NCBI GenBank assembly: GCA_030684815.1
Contig: JAUXXQ010000175.1
Coordinates: forward strand, 1-51,054
From: Methylobacter sp.
GTDB taxonomy: Bacteria; Pseudomonadota; Gammaproteobacteria; Methylococcales; Methylomonadaceae
Length of the DNA: 51,054 nucleotides
Direction: 5' to 3'
Every line of letters begins with the position of its first letter. Within the stretch, counting starts at the first letter, position 1. Made by a program: the position numbers and the translations under genes. The notes beneath the pieces are model-generated. The model was not told the origin of the DNA, ran no database searches, and saw only the letters and a list, made by a program, of their open reading frames with translations. Positions 1 to 11,284 of this stretch are shown here, in pieces.

Positions 1-18
1 CGAAAATGGGCAATAGCG
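1..18. repeat. inner part of left terminal inverted repeat
   Basis: These 18 bases match the inner 18 bases of the 40-bp right terminal repeat in inverted orientation without mismatch. The outer 22 bases lie outside the window. The stop codon of tnpA starts at base 20, giving the usual tight packing of transposase end and inverted repeat in this family. Confidence 0.92.
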
Positions 19-19
19 T

Positions 20-3000
20 CTATGCTAATTCTATTTGCGCTTCGTTGCTCTCCAGATCAAGCCGGAAATCATAGTCTATCGGCCCCGCCTCGCTATCCCG
101 TAACTCATACATGCCGAATCGACTAGGGTGTTGCCGGTATGGACTAAGAGCCCGCAATATGTCTGGCGTCAATATCATACCTTCATCCTGCAATTCCTTC
201 AGTGCTTGCGTCATGCTCTTACAATTGTGGAAGATCAGTAAGTTGGCAATCAGGTGATTATATTTGATGACTTTAAGCTGCTCATCCCGTACATTTTCTT
301 GAATCAGGTCAGAGGCGAAGTAGATCCACTGTGCGAACTTGTTAAAGCTCTCGCACCGATTCGTCGCGCTCTGAATCAGACGCCGCAACTCTTCGCTATT
401 CACGTACTCCAGAAGGAAACAGGTACGGACGACCCTGCCAAGTTCCCGAAAAGCGTAATACAATTTGTTTTTCCGACTGGCGGTGCCTAGCTTACGCAGA
501 ATCGTCGAAGGTGCGATTTTGCCCGCTTTGATCGACAACGCAATCTGTAGCATATCCGGTAGATGCCGGGAGATCAGCGCCCAATTAATGTTGTCCTTGG
601 CGAATAACTCGCTAATATGGTTATAAGCCTCATCCGAAGAGGGTTTGTAGCACTTCAAATCTTTCCAATTGCGAATACGTGGCATTAGTTTGATACCCAG
701 CAGATAAGCTAGACCGAATACAGGCGTACTTTGCGCCTGTGTATCGCCATGCAGCGTATCCGGCTGAATATCGGATTTATTCTTGGTCAGTCCGTCAAGA
801 ATGTAGATCGCCTCCCAAACGCCGCAAGGAATAAAATGCGAGAACAGGGCGATGTAATTGTCGCTCACATGATAGTATGCGATTCCACCCCAGCTACCGT
901 AACGGATGTGGTACTCCGAGAGTAGATTGTTTTCGTAAAGATCCCACAGGGTGCCATCGGCAGCCGCACGTTTTGCATCTCCCCACAGTTTGGGTAACCA
1001 GAATCGATTGTAGCCATTAATGACTTCACAGATCGCTGTTTCGAGTTTTTCTGTGGTGACATGCCGTTGATTGACGAATGCTATTTGCCTATCGCTGACA
1101 CCGGACACACTCTTTGCCACCTGCGTTGGCCCAAGCCCTGTGCCATAAGCAAATGTCGTTAGTATCTGCCGACGATCTTCATCCTCCAGCTTGCTTTCGT
1201 GTCCACTTAACGGCCCAAAAAATTGTCCCCAGTTCAGCCACTGCATGGTATCGCCCAGCACATCAAGCATTGACAGGTCGAGTGCCTGCAATTTCCGCGT
1301 CAACGCTTCTTCAACGACCCTAAACCCTTTCGGCTCAGGCTTTTTGATAAGCCTTGCCAGTGTTGGTCGGCCATTGACGATATTGAAATTCGTATTACTC
1401 AGATAGTCGCGGTCAACTGCATTGGCGGCATCAGTGAGTTGAATCCGAAGATGATCGACGAATGCCTGACTCTCGACCGGCAGACCAACCAGCTCCCCAT
1501 ATTCAGCCAAAGCTTCGTTACACTCATCAGTAGACAAAAGCTGATCGCGGGAATCCGAGTAAGTATCGCTGCCCGGCACACAAATGTCGGCTGATTTCAG
1601 TTCCTGAACCAGTTGCCGAAAGACACAAACCTCGAACTGACGGCGGTTTACACGACTCGGCTCCAATTTGCAGTCACTTTCGCCGGTGACAAGTTTCCAC
1701 CATTTCGCCGGCATCCAGTCCAAATCCTGCGGTGTTAGTACAGTTTCTCCCTTGCCGTTTAACGTGATCCAGTCGGAATGACGACGGTTGTAAGCAAGCA
1801 CGAAGGCCAAGGCATTTTCAAAGCTTTTATCCTGACTGGTTGCGACGAAGCGAAGCTTGGCCAGGATTCGGAACAGTTCGCTCCGACGAGCTTTAAAATA
1901 GCGCCACATGAAACGGCATTCGTTTTTGCCGCCAAACTCTGAGTGAACGCGCGAAAACTCACATAAATCCGGTCGTTCAGTGAACAGTTGGCGGGCTTGA
2001 GTAATTTGATCGTCTACCGGTTGGTCGGACTGTAAGAGCGTATCGAGCTGGGCGAATCGGCGCAGAATTTCATCGGTCTTGTCCTGATTGGCCGTCAGGT
2101 AATCTTCAAGTTCTGCATCAGCCAGGTGTTGAACTTTCATCATCTGTTTGCAGATCATATCGCACAGATCGTCGGTTACCCGTGCTAATTGGCGCTCAAT
2201 CAGGGCCAATGAAACGGTATAGCGCTTTTTCACTTCCATATCCGCCATGCTGGCGGCGTCCAGACTTAAGCCTTCCAGGGATAATTGCTGCCGTTTGACA
2301 ACCGGGATATTGCGTAAAAACTCCTGATTACCAGCCAAGGCCGAAAGTTGATCATAGCGCGTTAGTAGTTCTCGCAAACCACTCTGTGTCACCTTGGGTG
2401 CATCGATTTTCAGATCGTTCCACGGGCTGGTTTGGCAGTCTTCGCCGACCAGAAACAAGGCATCAAGTTGGGTGCGCTCAGCGTCACTCAAACGCTCATA
2501 GACATCACGGAACAGCGTTCGATAAGTTGCTGACCGCTGATCCTTGGCTTCTCGCAACAAAGTACCGAAGGCTGGCAGCTCGTACCGATACTTTACCAGT
2601 GTCTCGATCCCAACATTGATAATATCGGCTAAGTCGTCCTTGGTCAGCGCAGCGTCAACCAACGCTTGGCACAATAGCTTGTTTGCCTCGCTATTAAACT
2701 GACTAACGTTCAAATAGCTGCGTATCAGACCGACATGAGTTTTGCGCGAGCGTGAATCGTCGTAGTGCTTTAGCAACTCCCGATCAACGGGGACTTTTTC
2801 GATTTCCGCCAAATGGGCAATGATGGCGTCCGGAATTTGATCCGATGTCACAAAGTAGCCCAAACGCTGAAAGGTCTTAAGGGTAAGGAGAAAACCGAAT
2901 CGGTTACTTTGTCCACGCACAACCTTTGTGCAAAATTCACGCTCATCAGGGGTTGGGGAATACCACCGCTCTAATTCGCCTGTATTGAAGCTGGTTTTTA

Positions 3001-3031
3001 ATCTGGGGTAGGCCGTATCGCTCGCTAGCAT
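20..3031 (-). CDS. tnpA: Tn3-family transposase
   Basis: The 1003-residue protein has the usual full length for a Tn3 transposase, which binds the terminal repeats and carries out replicative transposition. An N-terminal DUF4158-like DNA-binding region is recognisable (about residues 10-170, with SPTPDE and QSNRFGFLLTLK). The RNase-H-fold DDE core is complete: first Asp in AADGTLWDL (about D692), second Asp in HGDTQAQ (about D763) and Glu in NRCESFNKF (about E894). It also has the PRIRNWKDL and ELGRVVRT motifs typical of the family. The reading frame is intact, so the enzyme is probably active. It is followed 13 bp upstream by the resolvase gene on the same strand. Confidence 0.96.
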   Translation of the reverse strand: MLASDTAYPRLKTSFNTGELERWYSPTPDEREFCTKVVRGQSNRFGFLLTLKTFQRLGYFVTSDQIPDAIIAHLAEIEKVPVDRELLKHYDDSRSRKTHVGLIRSYLNVSQFNSEANKLLCQALVDAALTKDDLADIINVGIETLVKYRYELPAFGTLLREAKDQRSATYRTLFRDVYERLSDAERTQLDALFLVGEDCQTSPWNDLKIDAPKVTQSGLRELLTRYDQLSALAGNQEFLRNIPVVKRQQLSLEGLSLDAASMADMEVKKRYTVSLALIERQLARVTDDLCDMICKQMMKVQHLADAELEDYLTANQDKTDEILRRFAQLDTLLQSDQPVDDQITQARQLFTERPDLCEFSRVHSEFGGKNECRFMWRYFKARRSELFRILAKLRFVATSQDKSFENALAFVLAYNRRHSDWITLNGKGETVLTPQDLDWMPAKWWKLVTGESDCKLEPSRVNRRQFEVCVFRQLVQELKSADICVPGSDTYSDSRDQLLSTDECNEALAEYGELVGLPVESQAFVDHLRIQLTDAANAVDRDYLSNTNFNIVNGRPTLARLIKKPEPKGFRVVEEALTRKLQALDLSMLDVLGDTMQWLNWGQFFGPLSGHESKLEDEDRRQILTTFAYGTGLGPTQVAKSVSGVSDRQIAFVNQRHVTTEKLETAICEVINGYNRFWLPKLWGDAKRAAADGTLWDLYENNLLSEYHIRYGSWGGIAYYHVSDNYIALFSHFIPCGVWEAIYILDGLTKNKSDIQPDTLHGDTQAQSTPVFGLAYLLGIKLMPRIRNWKDLKCYKPSSDEAYNHISELFAKDNINWALISRHLPDMLQIALSIKAGKIAPSTILRKLGTASRKNKLYYAFRELGRVVRTCFLLEYVNSEELRRLIQSATNRCESFNKFAQWIYFASDLIQENVRDEQLKVIKYNHLIANLLIFHNCKSMTQALKELQDEGMILTPDILRALSPYRQHPSRFGMYELRDSEAGPIDYDFRLDLESNEAQIELA

Positions 3032-3044
3032 GGCAGAAACTCGT

Positions 3045-3626
3045 TCATTGCTGAACGCTCGACCAGCCTATTCGAGCCAAGGTTTCGATCAGCGTGGTAC
3101 GTTTTACGCCAAAGTTACGGCAAACTGCGGCCTTGGACATACCACCTTTTAGCGCCGTAGTGATGGCCTCCAATTTTTCACCCACAATGGCGGGTGGTCG
3201 CCCACCAATCCGTCCACGTCGTTTGGCAGCGGCCAATCCAGCAACGACCCGTTCCTTTGTTAAAGCTCTTTCATACTGGGCCAGCGCCCCGAATACATGA
3301 AACAATAATTCCCCGGAGGGTGTAGTGGTATCCATGCCCTCAGTGAGTGAGCGAAAGGCAACCTGATTTTCTTTCAGCGCATTGACGATGGATAGCAGGT
3401 GCGACAATGAACGTCCAAGCCTATCCAGCTTCCAGACCACCAGAACATCACCTGGCTTAACGAACGCCAGGGCTTTCGTTAAGCCAGGCCGATTATCTTT
3501 TGCACCGGAGGCATGATCTTCAAATAAATGCCGACTATCGACTCCTGCCGCCATGAGCGCATCGCGCTGTAAGTCGGTTGTTTGGCGATCAGAGTCGGAC
3601 GATACCCGCATATAACCAACAAGCAT
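3045..3626 (-). CDS. tnpR: serine recombinase / Tn3 resolvase
   Basis: The 193-residue protein is a small serine recombinase that resolves the cointegrate made by the transposase. The catalytic Ser is S9 in the N-terminal GYMRVS motif. The active-site segment VVWKLDRLGRSL follows, and the C-terminal part (about residues 145-190) is a Hin-type helix-turn-helix with SKAAVCRNFGVKRTTL. Its start codon overlaps a perfect 15-bp inverted repeat that is probably part of its own binding site, so it likely represses its own transcription as in Tn3. The frame is intact. Confidence 0.95.
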   Translation of the reverse strand: MLVGYMRVSSDSDRQTTDLQRDALMAAGVDSRHLFEDHASGAKDNRPGLTKALAFVKPGDVLVVWKLDRLGRSLSHLLSIVNALKENQVAFRSLTEGMDTTTPSGELLFHVFGALAQYERALTKERVVAGLAAAKRRGRIGGRPPAIVGEKLEAITTALKGGMSKAAVCRNFGVKRTTLIETLARIGWSSVQQ

Positions 3627-3690
3627 GTACGAAAAACCCTTAGCAAGTAATTTGCGTATAGTATGTCATAGCGACAGGGTTTTTCGTACA
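3626..3690. other. probable res (resolution) site upstream of the resolvase gene
   Basis: A perfect 15-bp inverted repeat (3626-3640 TGTACGAAAAACCCT; 3676-3690 its reverse complement) with a 35-bp AT-rich spacer lies at the start of tnpR. Tn3-family res sites contain inverted recombinase-binding half-sites in this position, next to the resolvase gene. The subsite boundaries and the crossover dinucleotide cannot be fixed by eye. The rest of the res region probably extends towards 3800. Confidence 0.6.
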
Positions 3691-3921
3691 TTTTTAAGGG
3701 TGATTTTGGCGGCAATAGTGGCTCCCTATCTAACCAACCGGAAAACAACTGTTTTACGACATCCCAACGATCAGTTCTGAGCATCTCGGCCAGCTTTTCT
3801 GGCTCACCTAAAAAAATTTCAACTAGCTTGTAACAAAATCGCACTTCCCCCGACTGATAACTCAGGAAAGCAGCTATGCATTCCTATTCGGTTATCAATT
3901 CAAACTACGAGGCTTAACAAC

Positions 3922-4245
3922 ATGAACAAAAAAAACTTAGCTCTAACGCTTGGCGGCGCAATGGCAACAATATTAACCGCAAGCCCAATGGTTAACGCAC
4001 AAGAAAATCCTTTTGGGCTGCAAAAAATCAGTGGCGCACAAGTGCTTGCCGAAGCCGATGCAAAAATGCCTGAAGGCGGTTGCAGCGGCAAACTGAAAGA
4101 AGGTAAGTGCGGTGAAGGTAAATGCGGTGCCAACAAAATGAAAATGAAAGAAGGCGGCTGTAGCGGCACTGCCAAGCCTGAAAAAATGAAAGAAGGCGGA
4201 TGCAGCGGCAAGATGAAAGAAGGCGGTTGTAGCGGCAAGATGTAA
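3922..4245 (+). CDS. bufA: secreted Cys-rich bufferin-type precursor peptide (EGGCSG/EGKCG repeats)
   Basis: This 107-residue protein has an N-terminal signal peptide (MNKKNLALTL..., likely cut after VNA at about residue 26). Its Lys/Gly-rich tail holds six Cys: C54, C63, C68, C80, C94 and C103. Four are in EGGCSG and two in EGKCG. EGKCG-type precursors made next to MNIO (DUF692) enzymes are known as bufferins or HvfA. The MNIO with its partner turns these Cys into copper-binding heterocycles, and the exported product protects against metal stress. Modification of the EGGCSG variant is inference. The peptide is the first gene of the cargo operon and is followed by a hairpin terminator. Lys and Met account for most other residues of the tail. 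Confidence 0.88.
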   Translation: MNKKNLALTLGGAMATILTASPMVNAQENPFGLQKISGAQVLAEADAKMPEGGCSGKLKEGKCGEGKCGANKMKMKEGGCSGTAKPEKMKEGGCSGKMKEGGCSGKM

Positions 4246-4255
4246 CACCGCTATC

Positions 4256-4287
4256 AAGCCGCCAGATCATTTTTTCTGGCGGCTTTT
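4256..4287 (+). terminator. hairpin terminator/attenuator after the precursor gene
   Basis: A 10-bp perfect stem (4256-4265 AAGCCGCCAG; 4276-4285 CTGGCGGCTT) with a T-rich 10-base loop and a TTTT tail lies 11 bp after the precursor stop codon. A partial terminator here would keep precursor mRNA in excess over the enzyme genes downstream. Confidence 0.75.
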
Positions 4288-4320
4288 CACTATTAAACAA
4301 ACGTAGATCAGGAAAAAATT

Positions 4321-4455
4321 ATGTCGCTTATGTGCAATCTGAATGGCCAATGCAGTGCCAAAAAAGGCCTGTGTATTCATGAAAAAATGATGATGGGCGG
4401 TATGATGGTGCTTGCCCTGGCGGCAATCGCCCATTGGGTTTTACGCTGGTTCTAA
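4321..4455 (+). CDS. small Cys-rich single-pass membrane peptide in the bufferin operon
   Basis: This 44-residue open frame starts with MSLMCNLNGQC and has an AGGA ribosome-binding site upstream. It has three Cys in its N-terminal 18 residues (C5, C11, C18) with a Met/His/Lys stretch after them, then one hydrophobic segment (about residues 24-40, GGMMVLALAAIAHWVL) and an Arg-containing end. It sits alone between the precursor terminator and the MNIO start, 21 bp before the latter, so it is probably translated with the operon. I do not recognise a named family. The Cys-rich head resembles the N-terminus of the DoxX protein encoded further along. A metal-binding or anchoring role at the inner membrane is a guess. 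Confidence 0.62.
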   Translation: MSLMCNLNGQCSAKKGLCIHEKMMMGGMMVLALAAIAHWVLRWF

Positions 4456-4476
4456 ATCACTGAAGAGGGGGTACAA

Positions 4477-5412
4477 GTGAACACATTTGCTATCAGTGGT
4501 GCGGGCTTAGGGCTACGCCGAGAGCTGTTACCGGCTCTCGAATCGGGCGTTCCCGAGGCGATTAAGTTTTTTGAAGTATCGCCTGAAAACTGGATCGATA
4601 TTGGCGGGCGATTGGGCAAGACTTTTCGCGCCTACACGGAGCGACATCGCTTCGTGGCGCATGGCCTTTCCTTATCCATTGGCGGCCCGGCACCGCTGGA
4701 TATACCTTTTTTACTGCGGTTGAAGGATTTTCTCGATGAACACAACTTCGCGCTGTACACCGAACACTTAAGCTTTTGCAGTGATGAAGGGCATCATTAC
4801 GACCTTTACCCTATCCCCTTTACCGAGGAATCGGTGCGTTATGTAGCAGAAAGGGTTTATATTGCACAAGATATTCTTGAACGCCCGATTGCGCTGGAAA
4901 ATGCCTCTTATTACGTCACGCCGCCGCTTGCGGAAATGGACGAATTGACGTTCATCAATGCGGTGCTGACGGAAGCCGATTGTCTGTTTCATTTGGACGT
5001 AAACAACATTTACGTTAACAGCCTTAATCATGGTTACGATGCGACCGCCTTTTTAAAAGGCTTATGCGGCGAGCGCATTGTTTATGGGCATGTTGCCGGG
5101 CATGATTTGGATAAATCAGGGGTCATTATCGACACGCACGGACAAGCGGCTTGTGATCCGGTTTGGCAATTATTAGCCGTTGCCTATCAGACTTTCGGCG
5201 TGTTTCCGACCTTATTGGAGCGGGATTTTAATATACCGCCGTTAGCGGATTTGGTGGTGGAAGTCGAACATATCGCCGATTTGCAACAGTATTACGGTTA
5301 TAGCTCCGGCAGCACTCTCAATCATCGTTCCAGACGCGATTCTATCTCGGCAACTGCTCCCGGCGTTGCCCTATCGCCTGCAACCATGCAAGCCGCTGGA
5401 GCAATATCATGA
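4477..5412 (+). CDS. bufB: DUF692 / MNIO family multinuclear iron oxidative enzyme
   Basis: This 311-residue TIM-barrel enzyme uses a multinuclear iron centre to oxidise Cys side chains of the precursor peptide. Family motifs run in order: GAGLGLRREL, FFEVSPENW, HGLSLSIGG, EHLSFC, ENASYY, HLDVNNIYVN, YGHVAGHD, DTHGQA and LLERD. They carry the His, Asp, Asn and Glu metal ligands. It starts at GTG 4477 with GAGGGGG upstream. Its 3' end overlaps the next gene by 4 bp (ATGA), showing translational coupling. The last 35 or so residues are a low-complexity Ser-rich tail. The neighbouring EGKCG-type precursor sets it apart from the related methanobactin MbnB enzymes. Confidence 0.95.
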   Translation: MNTFAISGAGLGLRRELLPALESGVPEAIKFFEVSPENWIDIGGRLGKTFRAYTERHRFVAHGLSLSIGGPAPLDIPFLLRLKDFLDEHNFALYTEHLSFCSDEGHHYDLYPIPFTEESVRYVAERVYIAQDILERPIALENASYYVTPPLAEMDELTFINAVLTEADCLFHLDVNNIYVNSLNHGYDATAFLKGLCGERIVYGHVAGHDLDKSGVIIDTHGQAACDPVWQLLAVAYQTFGVFPTLLERDFNIPPLADLVVEVEHIADLQQYYGYSSGSTLNHRSRRDSISATAPGVALSPATMQAAGAIS

Positions 5413-6167
5413 TGGCTTTTCAAGCCGTGCAGCGGCAATTTCTAGCGCATTTGCGTAACCCTGGGCAACAGCCTTTGCCGACAGGTTTTGACCCACAAGG
5501 CGTGGCGCTCTATACCGATTTGCTGTACAACAAATTCAACGACAGCTTAACAACCTGTTTCCCCGTCACACAGGCAATTTTAGGAGAAAAGGCCTGGCAA
5601 CAGCTGCTTAAAAGCTTTATTGCCCGGCATCGTTGCTTGTCGCCGTATTACCGGCAAATCCCCGATGAATTTATCCAGTATTTGCAAACTGAATGGGTCA
5701 ACCATACCGGTCTGCCTTATTTGCTGGAATTGGCGCATTTTGAATGGGTAGAGCTGATATTGGCGATTACCGATGCCGAACCCGTTGTTCAGTACGAGAC
5801 TGCGGTTAATGACTGGTCGGCATGTCACCCCGTTTTTGCGCCGGTCTTGCAGTTGCTGCATTATGCCTATCCCGTACAGCACATCAATGAAAACTACCAC
5901 GCGACCATGCCTCCGGAACAGGCCACGCCTATTTTAGGGTTTCGGGATAAGGAGGATGCCGTGCAGTTTATTGAATTAAACCCTGCCACTGCGCGGTTAA
6001 TCGAAATTTTGCACGACACGGATGACAGCTACACCGTCGGCGAAGCAATAGAACAAATCGCCGCCGAGTTACAACACCCTGAACCGTCCGCGTTGTTTGC
6101 CTTTGGCGTTGCAACGTTGGCGGATTTAATGCAACAGGGCGCTATCCTGGGTGCAGGAAAGGATTGA
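5409..6167 (+). CDS. bufC: DUF2063 partner protein of the MNIO enzyme
   Basis: This 252-residue protein has the DUF2063 N-terminal domain (about residues 5-95, including FQAVQRQFLAHLRNP and LYTDLLYNKFNDSLTTCFPV), followed by a C-terminal domain of about 150 residues. Family members bind the precursor peptide and present it to the DUF692 enzyme, so the pair acts as one modification complex in the cytoplasm. The ATG overlaps the MNIO stop codon. The gap to the next gene is only 9 bp. Confidence 0.92.
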   Translation: MMAFQAVQRQFLAHLRNPGQQPLPTGFDPQGVALYTDLLYNKFNDSLTTCFPVTQAILGEKAWQQLLKSFIARHRCLSPYYRQIPDEFIQYLQTEWVNHTGLPYLLELAHFEWVELILAITDAEPVVQYETAVNDWSACHPVFAPVLQLLHYAYPVQHINENYHATMPPEQATPILGFRDKEDAVQFIELNPATARLIEILHDTDDSYTVGEAIEQIAAELQHPEPSALFAFGVATLADLMQQGAILGAGKD

Positions 6168-6176
6168 GGCTTTATC

Positions 6177-7064
6177 ATGCTATCAAAAACCAACATTGAT
6201 GACTTTTTACAAACGCTTTACACCATGGCTTTTTTGGTTGAAGCGCGCGATGCTTATACCGGCGGGCATTTGTGGCGGGTATCGCAGTTGACCGGGCGCT
6301 TAGCGTTGGCTGCCGGATTGTCGCGTAAAGATGCCGCTACAGCCGCATTAGGCGGTTTTTTACATGACTTGGGCAAAGTCGGCGTACCGGATGCTGTTTT
6401 GAACAAAACCGATAAATTGACCGATACCGAATACGCAATTATCAAAACCCACCCGGAAGTTGGCGTTCGTGTGTTGCACGGCCATCCGCTCGTGGCGACT
6501 GTTCATGATGCGGTGCTGAGTCACCATGAACGCATTGATGGGCGTGGCTACCCTCACGGTATTGCCGAAAGTGCAATCGCACAGGTGGCGAAAATGGTCA
6601 GCCTGGCGGATGCATTTGACGCGATGACCAGCAGCCGCCCGTATCGTGCCGGCATGCCGCTGGATGCGGCATTGGAACAAATCGAAATAAATTTAGGTCG
6701 GCAGTTTGATAAAAAACTGGGGGAACGCTTTATAGCCTTAGGCCGTGCCGGCGAATTAAACGCCATTATCGGACATAGCGATGCCGGTATTCCGTTACGT
6801 AGTTGCCCGATGTGCGGCCCTGTGGTCGTGGTTAAACGCGGGCAAAAAGCAGGTGATGCCGTGTATTGCCCGGTTTGCGGCAATGGCTTTCACTTGGCCG
6901 GACAACATAACCATGCCTTACAGCTTGAACCCAGCCATGAAAAAGGCAGCCCCGCCGATTTAATGACGGAGATAGATTACCCGCTGCTCAATCAACTGAT
7001 TGAAAATGTCGCCCCGTATTTGTCCACCGGCAAAAGCCATTGGTGGAATTGGCGTGGTGCGTAA
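6177..7064 (+). CDS. HD-GYP domain protein with C-terminal zinc ribbon
   Basis: The 295-residue protein carries an HD-GYP phosphodiesterase-type domain (residues about 15-190). The HD pair is in HDLGK (H63, D64), then HPEVG, HH at 116-117, the DGRGYP signature at 121-126 and D145. Such domains typically degrade cyclic di-GMP. The remaining part has two CxxC pairs (C210/C213 in CPMC, C231/C234 in CPVC) that look like a zinc ribbon or metal-binding knuckle. There is no receiver or membrane sensor domain. A ribosome-binding site (GGAAAGGATTGAGG) and the 9-bp gap to bufC place it inside the operon. It could link metal load to c-di-GMP level; that is inference. Confidence 0.88.
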   Translation: MLSKTNIDDFLQTLYTMAFLVEARDAYTGGHLWRVSQLTGRLALAAGLSRKDAATAALGGFLHDLGKVGVPDAVLNKTDKLTDTEYAIIKTHPEVGVRVLHGHPLVATVHDAVLSHHERIDGRGYPHGIAESAIAQVAKMVSLADAFDAMTSSRPYRAGMPLDAALEQIEINLGRQFDKKLGERFIALGRAGELNAIIGHSDAGIPLRSCPMCGPVVVVKRGQKAGDAVYCPVCGNGFHLAGQHNHALQLEPSHEKGSPADLMTEIDYPLLNQLIENVAPYLSTGKSHWWNWRGA

Positions 7065-7084
7065 AACCCCGAATCTATTTTGCG

Positions 7085-7648
7085 ATGAACATGATGAATG
7101 AATCCTGCTCTTCAACAAACTGTGCGGTTTGTCCGCTACACAAAGCAACGCGCAGATTGCTTGAATTTTCCAAGAAAACATCCCGCTGGTTTGAAACTAA
7201 TACCGCCGGTTTTGCACCGCTGTTGCTTCGGCTATTAATCGCTTATGAGTTTTTGGAGGCGGGATTGGAGAAAGTTTCCGGAGAAAACTGGTTTGCCGAT
7301 TTAGCGTTTCCTTTTCCGTTTAACTTATTGCCGCCCGATCTGAGCTGGGGGCTGTCGATGGGGCTGGAAATTGTCGCACCGATTGCGTTGATTTTAGGCT
7401 TGGCTACCCGCTTTTTCAGTTTTGCGCTGATGATTTTAACCCTCGTTGCCATCGCCGCTGTCCACTGGCCCGCCGAATGGCACGGCTTAGCGCAATTATG
7501 GCAAGGCTACGCCATTACCGATCAAGGCTACGGCAATTACAAACTGCCGTTAATGTACTTGTTCATGCTAACCTCGTTGTTATTTAGCGGTTCCGGCCGT
7601 TTAAGCCTGGATGCGTGGCTGGAGTCGGTAAAAAGCAATAACACTTGA
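7085..7648 (+). CDS. DoxX family membrane protein with Cys-rich N-terminus
   Basis: This 187-residue protein has four hydrophobic segments (about residues 40-60, 80-105, 110-130 and 155-175) and the DoxX pattern RLLIAYEFLEAGLEKVSG near the first. DoxX proteins are common last members of bufferin operons. Their exact job is not settled; redox or export support at the inner membrane is proposed. I start it at ATG 7085 because the N-terminus then becomes MNMMNESCSSTNCAVC, and the longer frame would overlap the HD-GYP gene. C8, C13 and C16 form a possible metal site facing the same way as the 44-residue peptide's Cys cluster. Confidence 0.87.
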   Translation: MNMMNESCSSTNCAVCPLHKATRRLLEFSKKTSRWFETNTAGFAPLLLRLLIAYEFLEAGLEKVSGENWFADLAFPFPFNLLPPDLSWGLSMGLEIVAPIALILGLATRFFSFALMILTLVAIAAVHWPAEWHGLAQLWQGYAITDQGYGNYKLPLMYLFMLTSLLFSGSGRLSLDAWLESVKSNNT

Positions 7649-7651
7649 AAC

Positions 7652-7686
7652 AACGCTATGGTAGCGGTTATCGCCGCCATAGCGTT
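7652..7686. terminator. hairpin between convergent genes
   Basis: A perfect 10-bp stem (7652-7661 AACGCTATGG; 7677-7686 CCATAGCGTT) lies 3 bp after the DoxX stop and faces the convergent CMD gene. Only a short T-run follows, so it may terminate transcription weakly from both sides. Confidence 0.55.
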
Positions 7687-7780
7687 TCGGGCTTATTTGA
7701 TGGCTCGGCTCATGTTGCGAATATCACCAGTGGTAATGGCTTGACCGCCGACACCCCACTGGCCTGAGGCAAGGTAAATT

Positions 7781-8362
7781 TTAACAACATTGTTCGGTAC
7801 ACTGCACAGGGGCATCCCACGCTTCGGATTGAAATGCCGCGTCCAGTGTCGTAGCGCCCATGATGTGATTAGCATAGTTGCTGAGCGTTTTCATCGTTAC
7901 ACCCAGCAGCACATCCAAAGCTTGCTGTGGGGTATAACCGGCTCCTAGAAAATCGCTTAACAGGTCGCCCGCTACCATTCCACGCTGTTTAACCACGGCA
8001 CGGGTGAATACCGCCAAAGCGTCCAGCTTTGGGTCGGACAATGGCTGTTGTTGCCGTAGTGCTTCAACAATGGCCGACTCGGCTTTTGCCATCCGTTTAG
8101 CGATCATTGAATGCGCCGCTACGCAGTAAGTGCAGTGGTTTTCAACACTTGCTGCGAGCAATACAACTTGTTGCTCTACAGGCGTTAACGAGGTTTTTTC
8201 GACCAGTGAACCTAAATCAAGGTAGGCTTGCAGTGTTGCCGGGGATTCGGCAAAACGCCCCATTAGATTAGGCACAAAACCGAATTTTTGTTGTGCGCCT
8301 GTCAGTAGTGGCTTAGCCGCCTCGGGTGCTTGCGAAATAGAATGAATATTAAATGGGGTCAT
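7781..8362 (-). CDS. carboxymuconolactone decarboxylase / AhpD-like protein
   Basis: The 193-residue protein has the CMD fold with the active-site motif ENHCTYCVAAHS (C77, C80, H84). In AhpD-type members this CxxC pair with a nearby His gives disulfide-reductase or peroxidase activity. The N-terminal GFVPNLMGRFAESP segment is typical of a common bacterial subgroup. The C-terminus ends in the unusual Cys-rich CTEQCC. The gene is divergent from the AraC-type regulator, a frequent pairing, so it is likely controlled by it. It lies within the transposon but reads against the bufferin operon. Confidence 0.85.
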   Translation of the reverse strand: MTPFNIHSISQAPEAAKPLLTGAQQKFGFVPNLMGRFAESPATLQAYLDLGSLVEKTSLTPVEQQVVLLAASVENHCTYCVAAHSMIAKRMAKAESAIVEALRQQQPLSDPKLDALAVFTRAVVKQRGMVAGDLLSDFLGAGYTPQQALDVLLGVTMKTLSNYANHIMGATTLDAAFQSEAWDAPVQCTEQCC

Positions 8363-8539
8363 GATGGTTTTCCTGTGCTGATGAGTTTTACTAAAAATTA
8401 CAATCGAGGTGCGTATGGGCTTAATAGTTCATTTTGCTGACTCCAAGGTGAATATCGATGGAGAAAGAGTAATCAATTCAACTAATAAAACCCATGCTTG
8501 CGATTCCGCCATTGTTGTCCAATCGTTCGGAAAATTTTT

Positions 8540-9421
8540 ATGGATGCTTTAACTGCGCTGGTCAACGCGCTGAACTTGCGCGCCAAACTGGTTTATTCCG
8601 GCGGCGTTTGCGGACGCTGGCTGATGGATCACAATTCCGATAGCTCGGTTTGGTTTCATTTGGTCAGCAAGGGCCAAGGCTGGGTGCATTCGCCAAGCCG
8701 GACAACGCCGTTGGCGCTGGAAAGCGGCGACTTGGTTTTGTTCCTGCCGCATGCGGCCAGGCACTTTTTGTCCTACAGCGCTGAGCATTTGCCCGGAGAC
8801 GCTGCCGACACCCGCTTGACCGGCTGGGAGGGCGGTGAATCGGGATTTGTTTGCGGTGAAATCGAGCTGGCTACGCCCAGATCGTTGTTGTGGCAGGCGC
8901 TACCGGCCGAAATTGTGATCAAAAAAAATCAAGCCGGTGATATTTTGGCCAAGCTGATTGAGCTTGTCATCAACGAGGCTTCCGCTCAGCGATTTGGTAG
9001 CGATTCGGTGGTGGAACGGTTGTGCGATAGCCTTTTCGTGCTGGTAATCCGTCATTGTATTGAAGAAGATTTGGTGCGAGAAGGTGTGTTTGCGGCCATG
9101 CAGGACAGACGGCTGGCAACCGCATTGGGCTTGATTCATCAGCAACCGTGGCAGCCGTGGACAATTGCTGAACTGTGTAGCCGATCAGGCTTATCGAAAA
9201 CCGTGTTATCGGAGAAATTTGCCGCGCTGATCGGCAGTTCGCCGATTGAATACCTGATCGCCTGGCGCTTGCAGATTGCAGCCCAGTGGTTGAAAGAACC
9301 CAACATGACCCTAGAAAGGGTTGCCGAGCGTTGCGGATATGATTCAGCCGCCGCATTTAGCAAAGCCTTTAAGCGTTGCTTTAAAATATCGCCAAGCGCA
9401 TTCCGCCGCATCCCAGAGTAA
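8540..9421 (+). CDS. AraC-family transcriptional regulator (cupin_6 type)
   Basis: This 293-residue protein has an N-terminal cupin sensor domain (about residues 5-190), with MDALTALVNALNLRAKL and SGGVCGRWLMD as the standard opening. The C-terminal AraC DNA-binding domain (about 190-290) holds two helix-turn-helix motifs: WTIAELCSRSGLSKTVLSEKF and LERVAERCGYDSAAAFSKAF. I start it at ATG 8540 because related proteins begin at this MDAL; the longer frame adds only a non-conserved stretch. It probably controls the divergent CMD gene and may also drive the sigma factor 3 bp downstream. Confidence 0.88.
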   Translation: MDALTALVNALNLRAKLVYSGGVCGRWLMDHNSDSSVWFHLVSKGQGWVHSPSRTTPLALESGDLVLFLPHAARHFLSYSAEHLPGDAADTRLTGWEGGESGFVCGEIELATPRSLLWQALPAEIVIKKNQAGDILAKLIELVINEASAQRFGSDSVVERLCDSLFVLVIRHCIEEDLVREGVFAAMQDRRLATALGLIHQQPWQPWTIAELCSRSGLSKTVLSEKFAALIGSSPIEYLIAWRLQIAAQWLKEPNMTLERVAERCGYDSAAAFSKAFKRCFKISPSAFRRIPE

Positions 9422-9424
9422 CCG

Positions 9425-9997
9425 ATGGATAAAAACCAGTTAAACGATCACCGAACCATCCTGTTACGTTACGCTTTGTTACAGTTGCACGATGAAGCGG
9501 TTGCTGAAGATGCGGTACAAGAAACCCTGCTGGCCGCCTTGCAAACAGGCGATAGTTTTCGTAGTGAATCAGCGTTTAGGACTTGGTTAATCGGCATTCT
9601 AAAGCACAAAATCGCTGACCATTACCGTGCGGCTGAACGGCATTATTCACTGGGAGAACCGACCAGCGAAGATAGGGGAGATCCCAACGCCGCCTTGGAG
9701 CAATTGATATTCGACGGTAAAGGCCGCTGGATAGGCTCACCGGGTGCGTGGAATAACCCAGACCATGCCTTGGAGCAAGACGAATTTTGGGGCGTGTTTG
9801 ACTGGTGCCAAAAAAACCTATCCGAACAACACGCGCGGGCTTTTATGCTACGTGAAATGGTCGGACTGGAAACCGAGGAAATTTGTCAGGATATGGCTAT
9901 TAGCCACAGTGTTTGCCGTGTTTATTTACACCGGGCGCGGCTAGGGCTGCGCGAATGCTTAGAACAACGCTGGTTTACGACCAAGAGAACATCATGA
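9425..9997 (+). CDS. ECF-type RNA polymerase sigma factor
   Basis: The 190-residue protein has sigma region 2 (about residues 12-75, LLRYALLQLHDEAVAEDAVQETL and SAFRTWLIGILKHKIADHYR) and region 4 (about 120-185, LSEQHARAFMLREMVGLETEEIC and CRVYLHRARLGLRECLEQRW). No region 1 or 3 is present. The following zf-HC2 gene overlaps its stop by 4 bp, the usual sigma/anti-sigma arrangement. ECF sigma factors controlling DUF692 operons in response to metals are known in other bacteria. Control of the bufferin operon 5.5 kb away in the same transposon is likely but not shown. Confidence 0.92.
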   Translation: MDKNQLNDHRTILLRYALLQLHDEAVAEDAVQETLLAALQTGDSFRSESAFRTWLIGILKHKIADHYRAAERHYSLGEPTSEDRGDPNAALEQLIFDGKGRWIGSPGAWNNPDHALEQDEFWGVFDWCQKNLSEQHARAFMLREMVGLETEEICQDMAISHSVCRVYLHRARLGLRECLEQRWFTTKRTS

Positions 9998-10170
9998 AAA
10001 CCTGTAAAGATATTAGTTGCCTGTTATCAGACAGTATGGATCGTTCTTTAACATGGCGGGAACGTTGGGCCGTACGGATACACCTCTTCATGTGCCGCTC
10101 ATGTCAACGGTTTCAGCAACAAATCGGTTTCTTGGGTAAGGCCGCTAGCCGCTATAGGCCTAAAGGTTAG
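9994..10170 (+). CDS. zf-HC2 protein, putative anti-sigma factor
   Basis: This 58-residue protein begins at ATG 9994, overlapping the sigma stop codon. It has the zf-HC2 zinc-binding pattern HLFMCRSC (His and two Cys) plus two more Cys near the N-terminus (MKTCKDISC). Such short proteins bind zinc and hold ECF sigma factors inactive. There is no membrane segment, so it would sense inside the cytoplasm. It is the last gene before the transposon end. Confidence 0.85.
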   Translation: MKTCKDISCLLSDSMDRSLTWRERWAVRIHLFMCRSCQRFQQQIGFLGKAASRYRPKG

Positions 10171-10209
10171 TTGATACAGCATTAAATCTGCTTATCACCT
10201 GAGCCTGTT

Positions 10210-10249
10210 CGCTATTGCCCATTTTCGCACGAATCCTTACGGTTACCCC
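10210..10249. repeat. right terminal inverted repeat of the Tn3-family transposon
   Basis: Read on the minus strand from 10249, this 40-bp stretch begins GGGGTAACCG and ends in the 18 bases that open the window. Its length and GGGG tip agree with the roughly 38-bp repeats of the family. The outer 22 bases cannot be compared with the left repeat, so the exact tip at 10249 is inferred from the GGGG. Confidence 0.88.
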
Positions 10250-10590
10250 TAGTCAGGCGCATTTAAAATGTCCAATATCGCTTTAGACTCTTCCAGGGCC
10301 ATCTTAACTTCATCCAATAACTTATTTAATTCCATTTCAGACGCTTCCGATTTTTGCTCAGGCTGTTTCAGCCGTTGGGCATCATATTTTTTACGTTTGT
10401 CGGGATCCGTCAGCACCGCATAGGCTTCATTAATCTCTTTTGACTTCCTGACCGCCTCTTTTTTGTCCCCATGATAGCGGTCGGGGTGATAAATCATAAT
10501 CAGCGCCTTATAAGCCGCTTTAATGACCGCCAACTCCGCACTGCCAATCACACCTAATATTTTGTAGAAATCTTTTTGTGCCGCTTTCAT
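10249..10590 (-). CDS. J-domain protein, 3' end at the transposon junction
   Basis: The 113-residue protein is a J-domain (about residues 6-72), with KDFYKILGV, the Hsp70-activating HPD motif in [10 protein letters not shown] and [20 protein letters not shown]. An acidic, coiled-coil-prone tail of about 40 residues follows. It would stimulate a DnaK-type chaperone. The stop codon TAG occupies 10251-10249, and its final G is the first G of the transposon repeat. The original protein may have been longer, or its stop may by chance sit at the target site. It reads in the same direction as engB and is downstream of it. Confidence 0.85.
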
Positions 10591-10657
10591 TAAATGTCCT
10601 AGCTGGTCTGAAACCTCTTCCTTCAGGGAGGTTAGTTAAGTTTTTGTTATGCCGCAA

Positions 10658-11284
10658 TTAAAGTAACGTCCCATTACTTGCAGGCGGATTTAAGTCGAAC
10701 AAGCGGTCAAGCGCGGCATGGACATCATCAATGCCGGTTTTTTTCAAGGCTGAAAACAGCTGTACTGTTAACGGAAAATTAGCCTCTTTTAACTCATTTT
10801 GTACCTGCAATAAGGTATTTTTAGCCGCCCCGTAATTCAACTTGTCCGCCTTGGTCAGCAAAATATGCAGCGGCAAACCGGTATGTTCGCACCACTCAAC
10901 CATCTGCCAGTCGAATTCGGTCAAGGGATGGCGCACATCCATCACCAAAATAATCGCGCACAACGATTTGCGCCCGGTCAAATAGGTTTCCATCAATTCA
11001 TGCCACTTTTTCTTCACGGCCAACGGCACTTTGGCGTAGCCGTAACCGGGCAAATCGACAAAGCGCCGCTGTTCATTAATTTCAAAAAAATTAAGCATTT
11101 GCGTCCTGCCCGGCGTCTTGCTGATCCGCGCCAGCCCGTTTTGCCGGGTCAATGTGTTGATCGCGCTGGATTTGCCCGCATTCGAGCGCCCGGCGAAAGC
11201 CACTTCCAAGCCCTGATCCGGCGGCGTATCACGCAGATGCGGCGAGCTATTAATAAATTTTGCCTGGGTGTAAACTGGATTCAT
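10658..11284 (-). CDS. engB: ribosome biogenesis GTPase EngB (YihA/YsxC)
   Basis: The 208-residue GTPase acts in assembly of the large ribosomal subunit and in cell division. The G motifs are complete: G1 GRSNAGKSS (about residues 32-40), G2 GRTQMLNFF, G3 DLPGYGYAK and G4 TKADKL. Length is normal. It is divergent from the cytochrome c4 gene, an arrangement conserved in many gammaproteobacteria. Confidence 0.96.
   Translation of the reverse strand: MNPVYTQAKFINSSPHLRDTPPDQGLEVAFAGRSNAGKSSAINTLTRQNGLARISKTPGRTQMLNFFEINEQRRFVDLPGYGYAKVPLAVKKKWHELMETYLTGRKSLCAIILVMDVRHPLTEFDWQMVEWCEHTGLPLHILLTKADKLNYGAAKNTLLQVQNELKEANFPLTVQLFSALKKTGIDDVHAALDRLFDLNPPASNGTLL

Follow-up and report, generated by a model that had tools for sequence, protein, structure and literature searches.

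An apparent Tn3-family unit transposon with an Hvf/oxazolin operon as cargo in a Methylobacter-like methanotroph

Does a metallophore peptide operon that lies beside transposase and resolvase genes at the start of a Methylobacter sp. contig travel on a Tn3-family transposon, and to which class of operon does it belong? To address this, we analyzed a stretch of 51,054 nucleotides (hereafter the window), positions 1 to 51,054 of contig JAUXXQ010000175.1 in assembly GCA_030684815.1; it is contig C178 of a genome of 4.29 Mb in 235 contigs, and its base 1 is a contig edge. An earlier note, made from the letters of the window, had described the first 10 kb as a bufferin-type copper-defence operon carried by a Tn3-family transposon. 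The explanation that we hold with high confidence is that a Tn3-family unit transposon of 10.27 kb lies between genes resembling mlaA and dnaJ in a Methylobacter-like methanotroph, that its insertion duplicated the target CTAGT, and that it carries a chromosome-homologous Hvf/oxazolin operon together with its own extracytoplasmic function (ECF) sigma factor and small anti-sigma factor.

Ends, insertion site and mobile core

Window positions 1-18 and 10210-10227 are perfect inverted copies, as the earlier note had seen. Since base 1 is a contig edge and contig C182 ends in 141 bp (C182:37209-37349) that are identical to window 1-141, C182 supplies the left side of the element; the overlap of 141 bp between C182 and C178 looks like a product of assembly with k=141, and several related records have k141 names. 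With C182, the left terminal inverted repeat extends to 39 bp (C182 37188-37226, GGGTGACC...), its outer 21 bp at C182 37188-37208 and its inner 18 bp at window 1-18 on the plus strand. The right terminal repeat is also 39 bp and lies on the minus strand (window 10210-10248, GGGTAACC...); the two full repeats are identical at 38 of 39 bases, with one mismatch. At the left end, C182 reads CTAGT and then GGGTGACCGTAAGGATTCGTGCGAAAATGGGCAATAGCG, while the right end reads GGGTAACCGTAAGGATTCGTGCGAAAATGGGCAATAGCG when reverse-complemented, with CTAGT adjoining it at 10249-10253. The target duplication is therefore the 5-bp CTAGT, directly before the left repeat and directly after the right one. The matching repeat and the 5-bp duplication that the earlier note expected to the left of base 1 are thus both present, but the duplicated bases lie one position away from the TAGTC at 10250-10254 that it had named. 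The dnaJ-like gene (10249-10590) has its stop codon within the right copy of CTAGT, and the whole element measures 10,269 bp.

The C182 flank ends in the mlaA-like gene and the right flank in the window begins with the dnaJ-like gene, both named from sequence only. When the flanks were compared with five stretches from relatives of the same genus (L026-L030), they lay uninterrupted and side by side in four of them (G008/L029, G012/L026, G016/L028 and G022/L027), where the junction reads CTAGTCAGG once in three relatives and TTAGTCGGG in the fourth. The join of C182 to C178 rests on the 141-bp overlap, the duplication and this synteny, and the four empty sites confirm both the join and the insertion. 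Had the cargo stood at the same place without the transposase in related strains, the transposon reading would have suffered; instead, the site is empty in four of the five.

The mobile core spans window 1-3761. The transposase gene tnpA (20-3031, minus strand) is intact and encodes 1003 amino acids matching NF033527 with 595 bits (cut-off 500) and PF01526; in an alignment to the Tn4430 transposase, D, D and E, which we take to be the catalytic residues, are in place. The serine resolvase gene tnpR (3045-3626, minus strand; 193 amino acids, PF00239) is likewise intact, as the earlier note had said of both genes; TnpR, with RVSS at its N-terminus, was aligned to an invertase and is listed with the gamma-delta and Tn3 resolvases. 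The region between tnpR and the cargo (3627-3761) is probably res, to judge from its position, an inverted repeat (3612-3640/3676-3704) and the limit of homology to sibling elements at 3758-3762. Replicative transposition with a resolvase acting at res is established for the Tn3 family, and this element would be expected to transpose by that route, in which TnpR would resolve the cointegrate at res; it may still be capable of transposition at present. The genome holds one full copy of it. Two further Tn3-type tnpA pieces occur in the same genome, L010 (on C214) and L011 (on C77), with 61% and 70% protein identity, and the piece on C77 has a related repeat end, by eye.

Beyond the insertion site, a stretch of about 55-70 bp at window 10574-10643, which separates the dnaJ-like gene from the engB-like one, occurs many times over in this genome and in related ones. 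Because the two genes lie apart in relatives where both were matched, their junction in the window may have arisen at this repeat, by rearrangement or by misjoining.

The cargo operon and its control

The cargo lies between the probable res and the right end (about 3762-10209), and its genes were assigned to families with the curated models of Pfam and NCBIfam and their cut-offs. Between the ends the earlier note had recognized an EGKCG-type precursor, an MNIO, a DUF2063 and a DoxX gene, and all four are open and exceed the model cut-offs. The precursor gene hvfA (3922-4245, plus strand) encodes 107 amino acids (NF050137, 22.7 bits; cut-off 19.5) with, by eye, a Sec-type signal-like N-terminus and two EGKCG and four EGGCSG motifs. 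The MNIO maturase gene hvfB (4477-5412, plus strand; 311 amino acids) scores 395.6 bits against NF003818 (cut-off 360), the DUF2063 partner gene hvfC (5409-6167, plus strand) 245.7 bits against NF050145 (cut-off 142), and the DoxX-type membrane protein gene hvfX (7085-7648, plus strand) 135.3 bits against NF050144 (cut-off 80), the last scanned from 7088, one codon past the ATG at 7085. HvfB, HvfC and HvfX are all above equivalog cut-offs.

By contrast, HvfB reaches only 233.4 bits against the BufB model (cut-off 310). Since HvfA, HvfB, HvfC and HvfX exceed their cut-offs and the BufB model stays below its own, the operon belongs to the EGKCG/oxazolin (Hvf) class. The precursor gave no match to BufA1 (DUF2282) or BufA2 at E up to 0.001, and with the MNIO protein below the BufB cut-off we rejected an assignment to bufferins proper (Buf1 or Buf2). 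The label "bufferin-type" therefore stands in the wide sense, in which the Buf_EGKCG/oxazolin family is treated beside Buf1 and Buf2 in passages of a survey of the MNIO landscape (PMC12452194), and fails in the strict one. By analogy with this class, the peptide product is probably modified and copper-binding, and the cargo may serve in copper defence.

The remaining cargo genes accompany this operon. Between hvfA and hvfB lies a small open reading frame (4321-4455, plus strand) of 44 amino acids with three Cys and a hydrophobic tail; a Pfam scan of it gave no match, but it is conserved in eight of 12 loci of relatives (L053-L064) at 64-95% identity, and as a 22-residue piece at 100% in one of these. 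An HD-domain (HD-GYP-like) protein with a Cys-rich C-terminal part is encoded at 6177-7064 (plus strand; PF13487), between hvfC and hvfX. Downstream follow an AhpD/carboxymuconolactone-decarboxylase-like gene (7781-8362, minus strand; PF02627, TIGR00778), a gene for an AraC-type regulator with a cupin_6 domain (8540-9421, plus strand, start codon uncertain), whose nearest model is RclR at 100.8 bits, far under the cut-off of 400, an ECF sigma factor gene of the TIGR02943 family (9425-9997, plus strand; 206.7 bits, cut-off 162.2) and a gene for a small zinc-finger anti-sigma-like protein of 58 amino acids (9994-10170, plus strand; zf-HC2, PF13490).

A predicted ECF-sigma promoter, TGTAA-N17-CGACTGAT, lies upstream of hvfA at 3829-3858 (plus strand), inside the cargo. 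We aligned the upstream sequences of hvfA from the window and from 12 loci of 11 relatives (one of them, G009, twice): TGTAA was found in all 13 and the spacing was 17 throughout, with CGACTGAT in 11 and CGACCAAT in the remaining two. The exact pattern has a single match in the genome. This conserved promoter suggests a self-regulated stress cassette, and the sigma factor that would drive it is the cargo's own. Envelope oxidative or metal stress would free the sigma factor from its zinc-finger anti-sigma factor, and the freed sigma factor would then fire the promoter before hvfA; HvfB and HvfC would convert the repeat Cys residues to thiooxazoles, and the exported peptide would bind copper. 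Because regulator, promoter and operon travel together, the cassette could function in a new host.

The doxX operon under RpoE2 in Haemophilus influenzae is presumably hvf. There, according to passages of PMC7907618, the ECF factor RpoE2 and a 67-residue ZAS anti-sigma factor control the doxX operon under hypochlorite. The H. influenzae hvf operon and its RpoE2/HrsE pair share with our element the HvfA, HvfB, HvfC and HvfX families, an ECF factor and a small zinc-finger anti-sigma factor; whereas the same passages describe RpoE2 and its anti-sigma factor as core genome (PMC7907618), sigma factor, anti-sigma factor and operon here stand on one transposon and are accompanied by HD-domain, AraC and AhpD-like genes. 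With the Buf_EGKCG family, as presented in parts of PMC12452194, the operon has in common a secreted EGKCG-repeat precursor, an MNIO, a DUF2063 and a DoxX protein, but the repeats here are mixed EGKCG and EGGCSG. Excerpts of PMC13097082 state that EGKCG peptides acquire thiooxazoles, with a loss of 8 Da for a two-repeat substrate of a relative, and that one such peptide was observed with copper bound.

Origins of core and cargo, and related elements

Where did the two parts of the element come from? Window 1-10700 was compared with five sibling elements in other genomes, and in all five the homology to the core, which starts at the left end (or where the contig or the match begins), stops sharply at 3758-3762. 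The core DNA is 96.8% identical in G147, 93.8% in G066, 84.8% in G076, 81.6% in G123 and 86.9% in G194, while the engB-like gene (10658-11284) of the same genomes is 70, 78, 71, 72 and 67% identical, respectively, over the aligned part. Since core identity lies above engB identity, we conclude that the core has moved between genera; in G147, which belongs to another genus, TnpA is 99% identical in protein.

The siblings differ in what they carry. The element of G066 is cargo-less and 3,874 bp long. That of G076 (contig C2, L069:1878-18631) measures 16.75 kb, with efflux-type genes by eye and a perfect duplication, TATAT. In G147 (C1:2273009-2311504, L065-L067) a 38.5-kb element with a perfect duplication, TAAAG, contains, again by eye, cobalamin-type genes, a NorB-like reductase, efflux genes and further Tn3-type transposase and resolvase genes. 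Allowing up to three mismatches, the terminal repeat pattern is present in 13 of the family's 237 genomes, our own included.

The cargo, by comparison, shares homology with clusters on chromosomes of its own genus, which are matched by window 3807-10115. It is 91.1% identical to the cluster of G007 over 3,328 bp, and pieces of it are 84-94% identical in G013, G010 and G009, except for one 136-bp piece at 71%; engB identity in the comparison with these four genomes is 83-86%. The order in G007 is hvfA, the small open reading frame, hvfB, hvfC, HD, hvfX, carboxymuconolactone decarboxylase, AraC, sigma and anti-sigma, differing by an insert of about 4.8 kb, with other genes, that follows hvfX. 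In the available stretches of these cargo-like loci of the genus, G007 included and some of them short contigs, no TnpA match was found. The simplest reading would be that a travelling core captured a chromosomal cluster native to the genus. Candidatus Methylobacter oryzae (G009) seemingly has two hvfAB copies, on contigs C50 and C84 (L061, L062) and C57 (L122); its contigs are interrupted at one and the same point of hvfB, and C50 has the genes of the window in a permuted order. The genome of M. tundripaludum also has a related cluster.

To see how far the combination extends, the transposase and the maturase were sought more widely. Among 55 related loci with flanks of up to 10 kb (some contigs being shorter) there was no TnpA match, and resolvase-like matches appeared in one, L082. 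Of the 237 family genomes, our own among them, 44 have a TnpA match at E up to 1e-60 and 222 an HvfB match at E up to 1e-20, but by eye no close TnpA-HvfB pair besides that of the window stood among the matches listed. In a sample of 369 genomes of the class, TnpA occurred in 12 at E up to 1e-150, our own included, the others at no more than 54% identity.

The earlier note had regarded MNIO operons as chromosomal, but they are not confined to chromosomes, and MNIO genes are common on plasmids. Matches to HvfB at E up to 1e-5 were present in 352 of 72,556 plasmid records, all below 60% identity. Moreover, pKF715B of Pseudomonas putida holds a true bufferin operon in an ISPa42/Tn4651-type copper transposon, which means that a Tn3-borne MNIO operon was already present in databases. 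Like our element, that of pKF715B has Tn3-family ends around an MNIO metallophore operon, with perfect repeats (35 of 35 bp) and a duplication, CTGCA. It differs in being 39.3 kb long, in a precursor and MNIO that are true BufA2 (92.5 bits, cut-off 60) and BufB (371.4 bits, cut-off 310), and in an operon that travels with cop genes, RND efflux and a two-component system. An IS3 element interrupts tnpA in pKF715B, while in pHD6515-VIM an ISPa42-like tnpA is annotated at full length (3,009 bp). Annotated surroundings were compared for 15 of the 352 plasmid matches (H41, H44-H49, H52-H54, H57, H70, H79, H126 and H130): by annotation, three (H48; H49, which is pHD6515-VIM; and H52) show the same copper island as pKF715B, and in ten no Tn3 element is visible bounding the MNIO genes. 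For P. putida LS46, passages of PMC4230813 describe an ISPa42-type element with copper genes and do not name MNIO genes.

Two other plasmids bring MNIO genes together with mercury genes. On that of Pseudomonas mandelii JR-1 (L138/L144), tnpA-tnpC, mer, copper and cadmium genes and a DUF692 operon stand together; because the available 49 kb contain no mate of its repeat (up to five mismatches allowed over 30 bp), this unit is not established as bounded. In Rhodanobacter denitrificans FW104-R5 (L140:3532-10860), a DUF2282-MNIO-DUF2063 operon sits between merR and merT of a mercury operon, and an integrase/DNA-binding gene pair lies further along the plasmid. The mer transposons Tn21 and Tn501 are unit transposons with their own regulator and with metal-stress cargo between res and one end. 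Our element would share this layout, but its cargo is a modified-peptide pathway and its regulator an ECF sigma factor, not MerR.

Our searches of the open-licence literature brought up no report of a transposon with an MNIO operon, and the main text of the MNIO survey (PMC12452194) mentions neither plasmids, transposition, horizontal transfer nor mobility. The combination for which the searches made gave no second example is an Hvf operon as chief cargo, together with its sigma pair, on such an element of a methanotroph.

Alternative explanations and significance

Several observations weigh against the transposon reading or its parts. The left junction joins two contigs instead of lying within one, the fifth relative's stretch (L030, from G017) matched the right flank only, and the flanks of the G066 element lack a matching duplication. 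The Hvf cargo stands beside this transposase in one genome of 237, among the matches listed, and for this reason its spread as a cassette is not demonstrated. With up to one mismatch, the promoter pattern has four matches in the genome (one exact, three with one mismatch) against five in the reversed control; as there is no excess over this control, we claim no wider regulon, and support for the promoter comes from its conservation, not its count. Finally, the authors who studied EGKCG peptides call their physiological role open, in an excerpt of PMC13097082.

Could the arrangement then be an accident, with a contig edge that happens to fall in a repeat and an operon and transposase that are mere neighbours? 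The window does begin at a contig edge, but the repeats agreeing at 38 of 39 bp, the perfect 5-bp duplication, the uninterrupted mlaA-dnaJ site in four relatives and the core limits common to the siblings contradict chance or an assembly artefact, which we consider extremely improbable and reject. That the element transposed a single time and has since become fixed and immobile, with its cargo kept as an ordinary host stress operon, would agree with the single full copy in the genome and with Hvf cargo on this core in one genome only, among the matches listed; tnpA, tnpR and both ends are intact, however, and the core in another genus (G147) is 97% identical in DNA and 99% in TnpA protein, so that we regard this as rather unlikely. 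A somewhat stronger case, though still short of an even chance, can be made that the peptide serves copper acquisition or trafficking to the methane oxidation enzymes, or redox defence, and not copper resistance. Methanotrophs need copper, the cargo includes AhpD-like and cupin-AraC genes, and the host retains another hvfB, on C93, next to hvfA- and hvfC-like genes. The sigma/anti-sigma pair, moreover, resembles the hypochlorite-responsive RpoE2 system as described in passages of PMC7907618. On the other side, bufferins improve growth under copper stress in the account given in parts of PMC12452194, copper sequestration is the proposed, if unproven, role of EGKCG peptides in excerpts of PMC13097082, and no receptor or uptake gene was seen among the cargo open reading frames.

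Taken together, the ends, the duplication and the empty site support carriage of the operon by a Tn3-family transposon, as the earlier note had proposed. A broader view, which we hold to be about evenly balanced, is that a modular Tn3 subfamily of methanotrophs takes up chromosomal clusters next to res and ferries them between genera, and that it acquired here a self-contained copper-peptide cassette under ECF-sigma control, in an event separate from the capture of the Pseudomonas bufferin operon.

In this element, whose ends are clean and whose empty site is known, a transposon has an MNIO metallophore operon for cargo, and its host is a methanotroph, for which copper is central; its compact and probably self-regulated operon is suited to laboratory tests. 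Together with the Pseudomonas element, it suggests that MNIO operons have entered Tn3-family transposons more than once, and because of this apparently repeated entry, surveys of metal resistance that consider cop, sil and mer only could miss a mobile metal-handling pathway.

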